From Sulfurovum sp. (GTDB lineage: Bacteria; Campylobacterota; Campylobacteria; Campylobacterales; Sulfurovaceae), in assembly GCA_012329065.1 (NCBI GenBank), contig JAAXPZ010000040.1, positions 1 to 34,171 on the forward strand: a DNA stretch of 34,171 nucleotides, written 5' to 3'. Numbering within the stretch: position 1 is the stretch's first letter; each line of letters opens with the position of its first letter. Below the pieces are notes generated by a model. It ran no database searches. It was not told the DNA's origin and saw only the letters and a program-made list of their open reading frames with translations. A program made the position numbers and the translations under genes. Below, piece by piece: positions 1 through 13,376 of the stretch.

Positions 1-413
1 GATATAAAGGTTCCCGTACCTACAAACCTTGGAAGTTCTTTGATGCTATTACACCCAAGACCTATGAGTAAATCTTCACTGCCTATGAAGCCATAGCGGT
101 TGTCATCACTAAAACGCCATGCTTTTTCTTTGGCTCCTACAGGTTTAAATGCTACACGAAGATTGCCATGGTTGACATGCAGTACCCATGCATTTTTTGA
201 CTCTGTGATTTTGCCAGGTCTTTCACTGTCCTTTGGCACGGGCATCGTCACGCCATACCCTGTGCCTGTGCCTGGACCGATGGTTACTCTGTACTTACCT
301 ACAAGGTCTTGTGGTAAAAAGTCTCTAAGGCACTCATGACCTGTCCTTATCTCTACAGTCTTTGCCGACAAGATACTTGTCATCAGTATAATTACTATGT
401 AAATTAATTTCAT
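1..413 (-). CDS. Secreted protein of unknown function, truncated by the window edge
   Basis: This frame is open from an ATG at 413 to the left edge with no stop, so only the N-terminal 137 or so residues are present. The first 17 or so residues (MKLIYIVIILMTSILSA) form a typical Sec signal peptide, so the product is exported. A glycine- and threonine-rich stretch (IGPGTGTGYG) follows near residue 49. I do not recognise a family. Its ATG overlaps the TGA of the VWA gene by 4 nt (ATGA), which suggests translational coupling and a shared function at the cell envelope. The signal peptide, the lack of stops and the coupling make a real gene likely; the function is open. Confidence 0.75.
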   Translation of the reverse strand, partial: MKLIYIVIILMTSILSAKTVEIRTGHECLRDFLPQDLVGKYRVTIGPGTGTGYGVTMPVPKDSERPGKITESKNAWVLHVNHGNLRVAFKPVGAKEKAWRFSDDNRYGFIGSEDLLIGLGCNSIKELPRFVGTGTFI

Positions 414-1654
414 TTTTTATCCTTTGTATCATTTGTTTCTTTACTCGGGGTATCTGCTTGAATAAGTGCTTCTTTGGAGTTTACTTTTGTCATGTCTATG
501 ATAAGATCATGACTGCTCCCACCTATGCTAAACTTCTCTTCTTTTGCGTTGTTTTCTGTCTTGGCTTCGACCGTATAGTCTCCTGCATCAAGAGCTAACT
601 GTACAACTTCAGAACAAGACTTTTTTATGCTATGCACCATACGTCCTGTATGGGCATACACTTCATAGCTTACTTCTACACCCATATCTAGACATTTTGT
701 TTTGATAACAAACTGTTCAAAAGCTATATGAAGTTTATTCACTTCATCTGCTTTTATTTCAAATGCTGTTTCTTTTTTAAGACCTTTATATTCTGATTTC
801 AAAATGTACTTTCCAAGAGGTAGCTTTTTGATGAGTGGTTTTTCTTTTGTAGTTTTAAAACTATAGCCAGTCATTTTCTTTCCAGTGGCTTTCCCATCTT
901 CGCCTTGTCTATAAATAATATGATAAGAATTTAACCACTTACCACCTTCTTTTTCAGAGGCTGTGATTTCTACATCATTTTCTGTTTTCTTTGCTACAGG
1001 CTTTGGCTTTTCAACTTTTTCTACCTTTTCAACTATGCTATCCATGGCATCATTAAGAGCTGTAGCATCTTTAGCAGAGAAGTACTCCCCTCCTGTGGTG
1101 TCAGCTATACACTCTAGCTGTGCATCTGTGTTTTTGTCTACATTGAAGCCTATGACATGTGCTACGAAGTTTATGCCTTGCTTTTTCAGCTCTTTAGCTG
1201 TTGCACATGGGTCGGCATCGCAACTCTCTTTGCCATCAGATATGAGTATGATAGTAGATTTCTCTTCACTAGACTTCATCTCCTCTGCTACTTTTTTGAG
1301 CGTTCTACTAATAGGGGTTTTACCTTTAGGCTGGATACCTTTAACTACAGAAAGTATCTTTTCTTTATCAATCTTGGCTACAGGAACAACTGTCTCTATG
1401 TCATTACAATCCCCCTTGGTTCTGTGTCCGTAGACTGTTAGTCCTAGCTCGGTATCTGGGTTCCATTTTTTGACTACGCTTTGTAGTGCTTCTTTGGCAA
1501 TAGTAATTTTAGCCTTACCGTCTATCTGCCCCCACATGCTACCACTGGCATCGAAGATGATAACTGCTTTAGGATTTTGAGCCCATGCCATTGTAAAAGC
1601 AAATAGTAAAAATACTGAGATGCTCTGCTTTGTCCATCTAAAAATATCTTTCAT
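410..1654 (-). CDS. Secreted VWA-domain protein
   Basis: A 414-residue exported protein with a von Willebrand factor A domain. A signal peptide covers about residues 1-25 (cleavage near AWA-Q). The MIDAS metal site is intact: DASGS at 35-39, a threonine in GKTPISRTL near 118 and an aspartate in LISDGKESCD near 145. VWA domains with a full MIDAS bind ligands through a divalent cation. The part after about residue 220 is Lys/Glu-rich with beta-sandwich-like repeats and no named domain. The start has a good AAGGA site. The gene overlaps the next secreted protein by ATGA. Its promoter appears to carry tandem 11-bp repeats, described separately. The family (periplasmic or surface VWA protein) is clear; the partner is unknown. 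Confidence 0.85.
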   Translation of the reverse strand: MKDIFRWTKQSISVFLLFAFTMAWAQNPKAVIIFDASGSMWGQIDGKAKITIAKEALQSVVKKWNPDTELGLTVYGHRTKGDCNDIETVVPVAKIDKEKILSVVKGIQPKGKTPISRTLKKVAEEMKSSEEKSTIILISDGKESCDADPCATAKELKKQGINFVAHVIGFNVDKNTDAQLECIADTTGGEYFSAKDATALNDAMDSIVEKVEKVEKPKPVAKKTENDVEITASEKEGGKWLNSYHIIYRQGEDGKATGKKMTGYSFKTTKEKPLIKKLPLGKYILKSEYKGLKKETAFEIKADEVNKLHIAFEQFVIKTKCLDMGVEVSYEVYAHTGRMVHSIKKSCSEVVQLALDAGDYTVEAKTENNAKEEKFSIGGSSHDLIIDMTKVNSKEALIQADTPSKETNDTKDKK

Positions 1655-1686: not shown

Positions 1687-1742
1687 ATGAGATCACAGCA
1701 CAATAGACACTTTCACAGAAGCCTATTGTACTGTGGTCTCAT
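1687..1742 (-). promoter_or_regulatory. Long inverted repeat in the 5' leader of the VWA gene
   Basis: Two 20-nt arms (1687-1706 and 1723-1742) are complementary at 18 of 20 positions around a 16-nt loop. On the minus strand the right arm starts at the end of the TATAAT at 1746-1741, so a transcript from that promoter would begin inside the stem and carry a stem-loop at its 5' end, about 30 nt before the VWA start codon. It could protect the mRNA, act in attenuation or be a protein-binding site. It could also end transcription coming from the lipoprotein gene, but no T-run follows. Confidence 0.55.
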
Positions 1743-1775
1743 TATAAACAAAGAGTGTTTACTCAGTGTTTGCTT
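1741..1775 (-). promoter_or_regulatory. Promoter of the VWA gene with tandem 11-bp repeats in place of a -35
   Basis: On the minus strand two adjacent 11-bp units, AAGCAAACACT and GAGTAAACACT (1775-1754), are followed by a 7-nt spacer and a perfect TATAAT (1746-1741). No -35 hexamer is visible. Direct repeats at one helical turn placed just before a -10 are typical of OmpR/PhoB-family response-regulator sites. A near copy with the same 7-nt spacing lies upstream of the neighbouring lipoprotein gene. Confidence 0.55.
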
Positions 1776-1834
1776 ACCTATATAAAAAGTATAACAGAAA
1801 AAGTGTGATGAATCGTGAAAGATAGAGAAATTGG

Positions 1835-1860
1835 CGTTTCATATCGTGAGATATGAAACG
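1835..1860 (-). terminator. Perfect 11-bp hairpin, possible terminator
   Basis: CGTTTCATATC (1835-1845) and its exact complement (1850-1860) enclose a 4-nt loop, 42 nt after the stop codon of the small lipoprotein gene. The position fits a terminator for that gene, but the stem is AT-rich and the following bases on the minus strand (CCAATTTCTCT) are only a weak U-tract. Confidence 0.4.
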
Positions 1861-1901
1861 AACTAGAAAAGAAGGAAGTGCATCAGAAGGCTAGAAAAGG
1901 A

Positions 1902-2204
1902 CTAGCGACAGTTACGATATCCAGCCCTCCATCCACTTCTGTAATTACTATAATTTCTCCAACGGTAGTTGTTTTTGTACCAGCTTCCATGGGCACTGTT
2001 GCAGCCATTGCGAACACCAGCTTGATACAGGCTATTTCGGTTGTAGCCATAATTGTATCCCCTGTAGTAAAAGGCATTGCTTCCTACGACACCCAATGTC
2101 GCACCTGTCACTAAGCCTCTTTCGTAAGGCGTACATCCCGTCATAGAAACACCAGTAATTGCTAGTGATCCTACTATTGCCATTTGTGTTATAAACTTTT
2201 TCAT
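1902..2204 (-). CDS. Small glycine/tyrosine-rich lipoprotein
   Basis: A 100-residue protein with a lipoprotein signal: a hydrophobic stretch ending in MTGC, with the cysteine near residue 24, which would be lipidated and anchored in the membrane. A Gly-Ala-rich segment (GATLGVVGSNAF) follows, and the rest is rich in Tyr, Asn, Arg, Trp and Gly. Such low-complexity outer-envelope lipoproteins are common in this phylum and have no assigned role. I chose the ATG at 2204, with GGAG six bases upstream; a TTG lies one codon earlier. It has its own promoter, which shares tandem repeats with the VWA gene promoter, so the two envelope genes are probably co-regulated. Confidence 0.75.
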   Translation of the reverse strand: MKKFITQMAIVGSLAITGVSMTGCTPYERGLVTGATLGVVGSNAFYYRGYNYGYNRNSLYQAGVRNGCNSAHGSWYKNNYRWRNYSNYRSGWRAGYRNCR

Positions 2205-2262
2205 CAAGAACTCCTCATATAATATGTGTGATTGGCCCCAAGGAGCAAGCTAACTATGTGAC

Positions 2263-2297
2263 AGTATGACAAAAGAGTGTTTGCTGAATGTTGCTTG
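2263..2297 (-). promoter_or_regulatory. Promoter of the lipoprotein gene with tandem repeats
   Basis: On the minus strand, CAAGCAACATT then CAGCAAACACT (2297-2276) are followed by exactly 7 nt and a CATACT -10-like hexamer (2268-2263). The arrangement and much of the sequence (AAACACTCTTT) match the site in front of the VWA gene at 1741-1775. The first unit is less regular, with one base missing relative to the other locus. Confidence 0.45.
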
Positions 2298-3420: not shown

Positions 3421-4191
3421 ATGGCACGCAAACCTCGTATAGACCTTATAGGATTTCATCATGTTGCCAACCAAGGTGTGTACAAAGCCAATATATTTGC
3501 TACTATTATAGAAAAGCAGAAATTTTTAGAGATGGTATGCAAAGCATGCGGTATCTACGATATCATACTCCATGACTACTGCATCATGGACAACCACTAT
3601 CATCTCCTAGTAGAAACCAAGCGTGAAAACCTATCCTACTTTATGAGGCAAATCAATGGCAACTATGCAATATACTTCAATAGAAAACAGGAGAGATCTG
3701 GTCCCTTGTGGAAAGGGAGATATAAATCATGGTTTATACTCCATGAGGAGTATCTAAACTATACCATCAAATATATAGAGTATGACCCCATAAGAGCCAA
3801 CCTAAGTTTCTTCCCTGGCGACTATCCTTTTACTCTAAGTGCTACTATACTAGGAACTGAATCCATCATACCTTGTGCACAAAAGTCATTGATGATAGAG
3901 AAATATACAGAACGAGAACTTAAAGCATTTTTGCAATCTGACCTCACAAAAGATGAGCTAGGGGTCTTAGAGGATGAAAAACGCAAAAAAGTTACAAAAG
4001 ACAAAACAGGCATCAAGCTAGAACGAGACAAGCCTCTCAAGGAGTACTTCAAACAAATACAGACTAAGATGGAGAGAGATACCGCCATGAAAGAAGCGTA
4101 TCTAGACGGCTACACACAAGGAGTCATAGCCAAAGAGCTCAAAATAACCTCTGCGCTAGTCTCTTACTGCATCAAAAAACTTGTCGACTAG
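3421..4191 (+). CDS. REP-associated tyrosine transposase (RAYT), IS200-like Y1 HUH family
   Basis: A 256-residue protein of the Y1_Tnp / IS200-like superfamily. The HUH metal motif is NHYHLL (H59 and H61), preceded by the family signature DYCIMDNH. The catalytic tyrosine is in the helix QINGNYAIYFNRK (Y82 or Y85), followed by the RAYT hallmark RSGPLWKGRYKS. The C-terminus (about 228-256) looks like a helix-turn-helix (QGVIAKELKITSALVSYCIKK). RAYTs are single-copy, domesticated-looking transposases linked to REP elements, cutting and joining single-stranded DNA. There are no IS ends directly around it. Its stop overlaps the convergent flavoprotein stop in a shared CTAG. An AAAGG site precedes the ATG. 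Confidence 0.9.
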   Translation: MARKPRIDLIGFHHVANQGVYKANIFATIIEKQKFLEMVCKACGIYDIILHDYCIMDNHYHLLVETKRENLSYFMRQINGNYAIYFNRKQERSGPLWKGRYKSWFILHEEYLNYTIKYIEYDPIRANLSFFPGDYPFTLSATILGTESIIPCAQKSLMIEKYTERELKAFLQSDLTKDELGVLEDEKRKKVTKDKTGIKLERDKPLKEYFKQIQTKMERDTAMKEAYLDGYTQGVIAKELKITSALVSYCIKKLVD

Positions 4192-12552: not shown

Positions 12553-13376
12553 GAGTATCCCCCAATTACAAACCCTCTATCTAGCCCTGCATAATCCTGA
12601 TAAAACTCTATTGACTTTACTTCTGCTTCTTTTGCAAAGTTAGAAATAGATTCCTTTTGATCATATCCCATTTCACAAACCAGATGCTTTATTTTTCGCA
12701 CTTTGGTTAACAGTATAATCTCCTTAAGTAGTTCATCGCCCTGCTCTTGGCTATACAAAGCAGTATGTGGCTCATACTCTGCCACATTTGGAGCCAGAGG
12801 TTTATTTTTGGCGATATAGGGTGGGTTAGATACTATCATTTCCAGACTATTATAGTCTATACCATCGAGCAAAGAAGTATGCAGTAGCTCTATCTGCCCC
12901 TCTAGTCCAAACTCTTCTATATTTTCTTTGGCTACTACCAAAGCATCTTTTGAGATATCAGAAGCAATGATTTTTATATGAGGAAATTTTCTGGCAAGCG
13001 ATATCGAGATTGCTCCTGAGCCTATGCCTATCTCTGCGATACGAGTGTAGCCATTTTCTTTGATAAGTTCTGAAGCTATATCTACAAGTATCTCTGTTTC
13101 TGACCTAGGTATCAATACAGCGGAACTCACAGTAAGCTCTAGATCATAAAAACTAGATCTACCTATGATGTATTCCATAGGCTCATGTGCCTTTCGTCTG
13201 GCAATAAGCTCTTCAAATTTATTAAACCTGCACACTTCATCACCATCATGAGTCACAAGATATGTCCTGTCTTTATCCAGATGGTATGCCAAAAGCACCT
13301 CTGCCTCAAACAGAGGTCGTTCGCAGGCATATCTAAGCTCTTCTTTTGCCCACTGCAGTGCTTCATTAATTATCAT
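12549..13376 (-). CDS. prmC: Peptide chain release factor N5-glutamine methyltransferase
   Basis: A 275-residue S-adenosylmethionine-dependent methyltransferase that methylates the glutamine of the GGQ motif of release factors RF1 and RF2, which raises termination efficiency. The N-terminal helical domain is followed by IPRSETE near 89-95, the SAM-binding EIGIGSGA at 115-122 and the catalytic NPPY at 184-187. The length is typical. Here it is followed by two membrane protein genes rather than sitting beside prfA, with a GTGA overlap to the first. It lies 9 nt downstream of the M48 peptidase gene. Confidence 0.93.
   Translation of the reverse strand: MIINEALQWAKEELRYACERPLFEAEVLLAYHLDKDRTYLVTHDGDEVCRFNKFEELIARRKAHEPMEYIIGRSSFYDLELTVSSAVLIPRSETEILVDIASELIKENGYTRIAEIGIGSGAISISLARKFPHIKIIASDISKDALVVAKENIEEFGLEGQIELLHTSLLDGIDYNSLEMIVSNPPYIAKNKPLAPNVAEYEPHTALYSQEQGDELLKEIILLTKVRKIKHLVCEMGYDQKESISNFAKEAEVKSIEFYQDYAGLDRGFVIGGYS

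Follow-up and report, generated by a model that had tools for sequence, protein, structure and literature searches.

Tandem 11-bp repeats at envelope-gene promoters of a Sulfurovum species and a candidate OmpR/PhoB-type regulator that may read them

Introduction

Two gene starts in a 34,171-nucleotide stretch of Sulfurovum sp. DNA (the whole of which we call the window) are preceded by what looks like the same promoter, and the question that this raises is whether the likeness reflects a common switch and, if so, which regulator operates it. Regulators of the OmpR/PhoB family bind two 11-nt direct repeats, head to tail (PMC4415409, PMC10294691), and a preliminary description of the window had supposed that one such response regulator activates both genes. 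Here we examine the two promoters, the recurrence of their shared element in the genome and in relatives, the genes that it precedes, and the regulator most likely to recognise it.

Two promoters in the window

Both promoters lie on the minus strand and were read directly. Ahead of the VWA operon, the tandem operator (1754-1775) consists of AAGCAAACACT (1775-1765) and GAGTAAACACT (1764-1754), followed by the spacer CTTTGTT (1753-1747) and, 7 nt past the operator, the -10 element TATAAT (1741-1746). Ahead of the lipoprotein gene, the operator (2276-2297) is formed by CAAGCAACATT (2297-2287) and CAGCAAACACT (2286-2276), the spacer is CTTTTGT (2275-2269) and the -10 element, again 7 nt downstream, is CATACT (2263-2268). 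A profile model also finds both operators; the VWA site, which it scores at E=3e-8 (model R1), is one of its training sites.

The preliminary description had given both promoters this architecture of two 11-bp repeats, 7 nt and a -10 element without a -35, and a reading of 1775-1741 and 2297-2263 bears it out: the hexamers at the 17-nt position, ACACTG and ACATTC, each match TTGACA at 0 of 6 bases. Elements at -35 are weak throughout the Campylobacterota, so the missing -35 by itself tells little.

Over the whole window, the tandem pattern with up to 3 mismatches is confined to these two promoters, and it occurred 0 times in 100 shuffles.

Recurrence of the operator in the genome

We searched the genome to which the window belongs (G000; 1.94 Mb in 82 contigs) with the repeat AGCAAACACTNAGCAAACACT alone, allowing up to 3 mismatches and leaving the -10 element out of the pattern; a loose, degenerate pattern that tolerated 3 mismatches had given few or unrelated AT-rich matches, and the repeat-only pattern was used instead, the genome being read in the neighbourhood of its matches. 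It matched 6 times, against 0 in the reversed control: at the VWA site and at five places that represent four further promoters. A -10-like hexamer stands exactly 7 nt downstream of all 6 matches, and at those found blind it reads TATATT (contig C26), CATACT (C20:3925), TATGAT (C52) and TAGACT (C39:804 and its near-copy C20:6086). All of the blind sites precede a gene start in the correct orientation. When matches to TATAAT are summed over six promoters, offset 7 is the single peak (28 of 36; the next best offset reaches 19). Hexamers that agree with TATAAT at 4 of 6 positions and have A at position 2 and T at position 6 occur at a frequency of about 0.035 per fixed position in the contigs examined, which puts the chance of meeting them at four blind promoters at about 1.5e-6. 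The combination of a shared operator with a -10 element 7 nt away exceeds chance. The preliminary description had named a scatter of the repeat over random genome positions as the outcome that would speak against it, and the opposite was found: the sites lie before gene starts, keep a fixed 7-nt gap and precede envelope genes and the genes of a regulator and its kinase.

A model of the own-genome sites recovers seven places, which are its training sites, at E<=9e-7, and its next match has E=0.024; E-values from our home-made models are rough. That next match (C52:491; L016 491-512) was not counted, as it is a single half-site, GGGCAAACACT, with no distal repeat and no -10 element at 7 nt. The half-site precedes a gene for a secreted 312-aa protein.

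Direct half-sites with an 11-bp period occur at all six promoters of the genome and in the sites of the relatives described below, and in every promoter the site takes the place of a -35 element at 7 nt from the -10. The proximal repeat, AAACACT, is almost invariant and the distal repeat varies, as if one half-site anchored the dimer. The variability of the first repeat at several G000 promoters counts against a single regulator.

Could two A/C-rich upstream stretches resemble one another by accident? Near half-sites are indeed frequent in the window (17, against an expected 9.4), but the tandem form is absent from the shuffles and from the reversed genome, and tandem sites are repeated in relatives at syntenic places. 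The blind matches with their identical -10 spacing refute such an accident, to which we give next to no credence.

A REP-like palindrome beside the VWA promoter

The VWA operon has in its 5' leader a REP-like palindrome (1689-1740, minus strand; fold -30.1 kcal/mol, z -7.1) of the form (T)ATAATGAGACCACAGCACAATAG...CTATTGTGCTGTGGTCTCAT, which is not part of the operator. Copies are present on six other contigs of the genome (C6:98043-98094, C15:12725-12776, C17:2992, C25:8769-8820, C45:48409 and C77:6441). The final bases of the VWA -10 element overlap the end of the palindrome and, because several copies begin ATAATGAGACC, may belong to the repeat; the palindrome may thus supply the end of that -10. 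We rejected the leader hairpin as an intrinsic terminator, since no T-run follows it and the repeat is dispersed. The window also contains, near the palindrome, a gene for an IS200/Y1-type (RAYT-like) transposase (3421-4191; Pfam PF01797). Transposases of this type are associated with REPs (PMC2817692), from which we infer that this one is a plausible mobiliser of the palindrome.

A palindrome that abuts one of the promoters invites the thought that the tandem repeats are themselves copies of an upstream segment that was mobile or had recombined or, failing that, a promoter element read by RNA polymerase itself. REP copies elsewhere in the genome, however, have no tandem repeat with them. The promoters have only the 35-bp element in common and their flanks differ at each, which, together with the blind matches, excludes a shared mobile sequence; and a general promoter element would hardly be so rare (seven places) or so closely tied to one regulator. 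Explanations of this kind are very improbable, and we continue with the repeats as a regulator's operator.

Genes behind the sites

In the window, the first gene of the VWA operon (410-1654, minus strand) is an ORF for a secreted VWA-domain protein of 414 aa (Pfam PF00092, E=1.9e-16). Its stop codon overlaps the start (ATGA) of the translationally coupled second gene (3-413, minus strand), which encodes a secreted protein with a signal peptide and no family and runs off the window. The lipoprotein gene (1902-2204, minus strand) encodes a small, Tyr/Arg/Gly-rich product of 100 aa with a Cys after VSMTG and, likewise, no family. Elsewhere in the genome the sites precede genes for a VWA lipoprotein (C26; the VWA match is below the Pfam curated cut-off), an Ig/cadherin/Lcl lipoprotein (C20), a membrane protein assigned to Yip1 by a domain match (C52), and an OmpR-family response regulator (C39; L017 864-1517). 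The regulator gene is the first of an operon, and the histidine kinase gene overlaps it (L017 1504-2472).

The kinase gene is followed by those for a small secreted protein, a beta-barrel and, across the overlap of contigs C39 and C37, a Sel1-like protein. The barrel was modelled with modest confidence (pLDDT 61), and the best matches of the model are MOMP of Campylobacter jejuni and OprD-type porins; at that modest level of confidence, the barrel is predicted to be an OprD/MOMP-like porin. Directly 3' of the Sel1 gene is a gene for an ELWxxDGT-repeat lipoprotein (L171 596-1942, C37). The regulator promoter and the first 29 codons are present twice in the assembly, at the end of C20 (L015 6086-6234) and on C39 (L017 804-950); the sequence upstream differs, as do a few single positions, and the assembly here contains either a second copy or strain variation.

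Signal sequences and lipoboxes, judged by eye, predict export or a place in the membrane for every target product except the regulator. The proposal of a small surface regulon under one OmpR-family regulator, already made in the preliminary description, gains support from the position of the sites before envelope genes and before the operon of such a regulator and its kinase, and from their recurrence in regulator-bearing relatives. With six promoters in G000, the regulon is larger than the window shows.

The C39 regulator and its kinase

Pfam domains in the regulator are REC (PF00072, E=1.2e-23) and Trans_reg_C (PF00486, E=5.4e-13), and those in the kinase are HisKA (PF00512) and HATPase_c (PF02518). 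The receiver residues D11, D12, D54 and K104 are invariant in three orthologues. The pair therefore has the domains, the phospho-acceptor aspartate, the acidic pair and the lysine of an OmpR/PhoB-family regulator with its cognate kinase, and, because these phosphorelay residues and domains are kept, we propose that activation depends on phosphorylation.

The regulator scores below every NCBIfam equivalog cut-off among those listed: 103.8 bits against 296.2 for PhoB (TIGR02154) and 95.5 against 330 for PmrA/BasR. For CpxRA and BaeR, the CpxA model gives 62 bits against 486 and the BaeR model at most 79 against 380. Nor does the system have the TTTAAG half-sites and the lack of an adjacent kinase by which HP1043/CosR is recognised; here the half-site is AAACACT and the kinase gene overlaps that of the regulator.

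Sites and regulator in related genomes

We compared 60 genomes, namely G000 and 59 relatives. At a strict cut-off the regulator is found only in G000, G004 (73% identity) and G020 (45%), and a wider scan of contigs gave five clear orthologues, L047 (which is G004), L048, L049, L050 and L051 (which is G020). Wherever the contig reaches, the order regulator, kinase, small protein, barrel, Sel1 is kept.

Upstream of the regulator gene of the congener G004 (L047) there is a site-like element with the 7-nt gap. Its score of 20 bits, as against 38-47 for the own-genome sites, counts against our reading, and so does the absence of a site upstream of the regulator gene in L048, L049 and L050. L049 and L050 have operators immediately behind the last gene of the operon and ahead of a lipoprotein gene, as well as a weaker site between the kinase and small-protein genes; the conservation of the weaker site is only partly evidence, because part of it is coding sequence. 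L050 has a second good tandem site (12780-12936) before a 33-codon ORF (MKTKIIFLFTSILVLDLAIKVLNSTTTISFVLN), possibly encoding a small membrane peptide. The sites of L047, L049 and L050 were found with the own-genome matrix and then used to train a second model (R2).

Two sites lie outside that training. One (E=1.8e-5) is in G060, the genome of L048, before a lipoprotein gene homologous to those of L049 and L050; on contig C77 of this genome (L169 1354-2235), the same promoter and lipoprotein gene adjoin a different OmpR-type two-component system. The other is in L051, whose regulator is 45% identical, behind the Sel1 gene: CGACACT-CACT-CGACACT-TCTTTTC-TATACT, after which, in the corresponding syntenic position, comes the gene of a GCGGGG lipoprotein, MKATIRHTLFASGAALFLIGCGGGG. 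Relative to the other sites, the repeat sequence of L051 has changed, and the 11-bp period and the 7-nt gap have not. A scan that uses no motif (any 7-bp repeat with an 11-bp period, plus a -10) finds one place only in the 3.6-kb L051 contig, where 0.2 are expected; the scan is too noisy for long loci, stays close to its null expectation in the window and in L050, and is informative for L051 only. The own-genome matrix scores better in L047, L049, L050, L051 and the G060 contig than in 40 random sequences of the same composition, and no better in L048, where the contig breaks off within the kinase gene.

Among the 60 genomes, matches at E<0.004 occur in G000 and G004 only, both of which bear the regulator. 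There is none at this threshold in the 57 genomes that lack the regulator by the cut-off, nor in G020, whose site is so diverged that the R2 model cannot serve to find others there; we regarded weak matches (E 0.0046-0.02) in genomes lacking the regulator as background. Sites adjoin the regulator operon in five species (G000, G004, L049, L050 and L051).

Regulators of 36-41% identity (L052-L066) were set aside, as several have a different, inverted upstream element (GTGTA...TACAC-like) and they look like another regulator group. In L055, L056, L060 and L061, GTGTACTCxxTTxCACA stands upstream of 37-39% identical regulators, and is perhaps the operator of that separate group.

These comparisons bear on the alternative that another of the dozen or so OmpR-family regulators of G000 binds the sites, the C39 operon being only its target. 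The abundance of such regulators in the genome lends this some weight, as do the regulator genes of L049 and L050, which have no site upstream, and the G060 target beside another two-component system. From genome to genome the sites nevertheless go with the C39 regulator, whereas one would expect other OmpR-like regulators in all of the genomes compared, including those without sites. Furthermore, the sites adjoin an operon of the C39 type in all five species, and none of the G000 regulators compared is close to the neighbouring regulator of G060 (the best full-length match is 32% identical). We consider it unlikely that another regulator is responsible. Site position and co-occurrence make the C39 regulator the best candidate for the shared activator, and both window sites are quite probably operators of this OmpR/PhoB-type protein, which, with its kinase, would control itself and envelope genes.

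A model of regulation

Because its own genes and a few surface genes are preceded by the site at an unchanged distance, the C39 sensor-regulator pair is likely to be the switch. From an operator, a fixed spacing, a list of targets and a conservation with the regulator that are all observed, we infer binding, activation, dependence on phosphorylation and positive autoregulation, as follows. Activity of the kinase would lead two phosphorylated subunits of the regulator to occupy the tandem repeats, next to each other on one face of the DNA. Bound there in place of a -35 element, the regulator would bring RNA polymerase to the -10, 7 nt downstream. It would so drive its own operon, with the kinase, the small secreted protein, the putative OprD/MOMP-like porin and the Sel1 protein, together with a small number of envelope genes for VWA proteins, lipoproteins and the Yip1 membrane protein; positive autoregulation would apply in G000 and G004. 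The term "surface stress", used in the preliminary description, is a mere label.

Repressors, too, bind in the -35 region, which the operator overlaps, and the regulator might instead repress, its dimers over that region blocking polymerase until a signal removes them. Polymerase, however, would have no other -35 to use, and every promoter keeps exactly 7 nt between operator and -10, while activation by PhoB needs strict spacing (PMC10294691). Repression seems improbable to us, and activation remains the preferred reading.

The promoter type, the OmpR/PhoB direct repeat, is known; the regulon, of Sulfurovum-like bacteria, is so far undescribed, and a literature search on Sulfurovum regulons turned up nothing about the regulator in the titles and abstracts. 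A broader interpretation, which we offer tentatively and hold to be possible but doubtful, is that of an undescribed self-regulated envelope module of regulator, kinase, small secreted protein, porin and Sel1 protein. Its 11-bp tandem operator would co-evolve in sequence with the regulator at an unchanged period and spacing, and its surface targets would be largely swapped between species; the small secreted protein could possibly provide periplasmic feedback or a signal, and the REP-like palindrome may have helped to recruit the VWA operon.

For a largely uncultured group with little experimental data on regulation, we here propose, from sequence alone, a regulator together with its operator and the greater part of its regulon. 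The small regulon would link uncharacterised surface proteins (VWA proteins, lipoproteins, a porin) to one signal, and the diverged site by the 45%-identical orthologue may offer a natural case of operator-regulator co-evolution.

Comparison with known systems

The pho box of PhoB (Escherichia coli) likewise has two 11-nt direct repeats, each of 7 conserved and 4 less conserved nt, which are bound head to tail at a strict spacing from the core promoter, and the phoB gene too lies inside its own regulon (PMC4415409, PMC10294691). The PhoB repeat is CTGTCAT, in contrast to AAACACT here, and its targets serve phosphate uptake, in contrast to the envelope genes described above. The PmrA/BasR box also consists of two head-to-tail half-sites with an 11-bp period, one of them stronger (PMC3973317), but these are CTTAAT/CCTAAG.

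From the same phylum, HP1043/HsrA and CosR of Helicobacter and Campylobacter are OmpR-family regulators with a promoter-overlapping site (-26 to -42) of hexamers 5 bp apart (PMC8345958). They differ in the TTTAAG half-site, in being orphan and independent of phosphorylation, and in a head-to-head binding model, whereas the present regulator has a kinase partner and an AAACACT half-site. For DccRS of Campylobacter jejuni, we know of no operon partners that match the porin, small secreted protein and Sel1 protein found here. DccRS does pair an OmpR-like regulator with a kinase, and it increases the transcription of a few genes that encode periplasmic and membrane proteins (PMC9449129); likened by this description alone, it would be the nearest in behaviour to the system proposed here.
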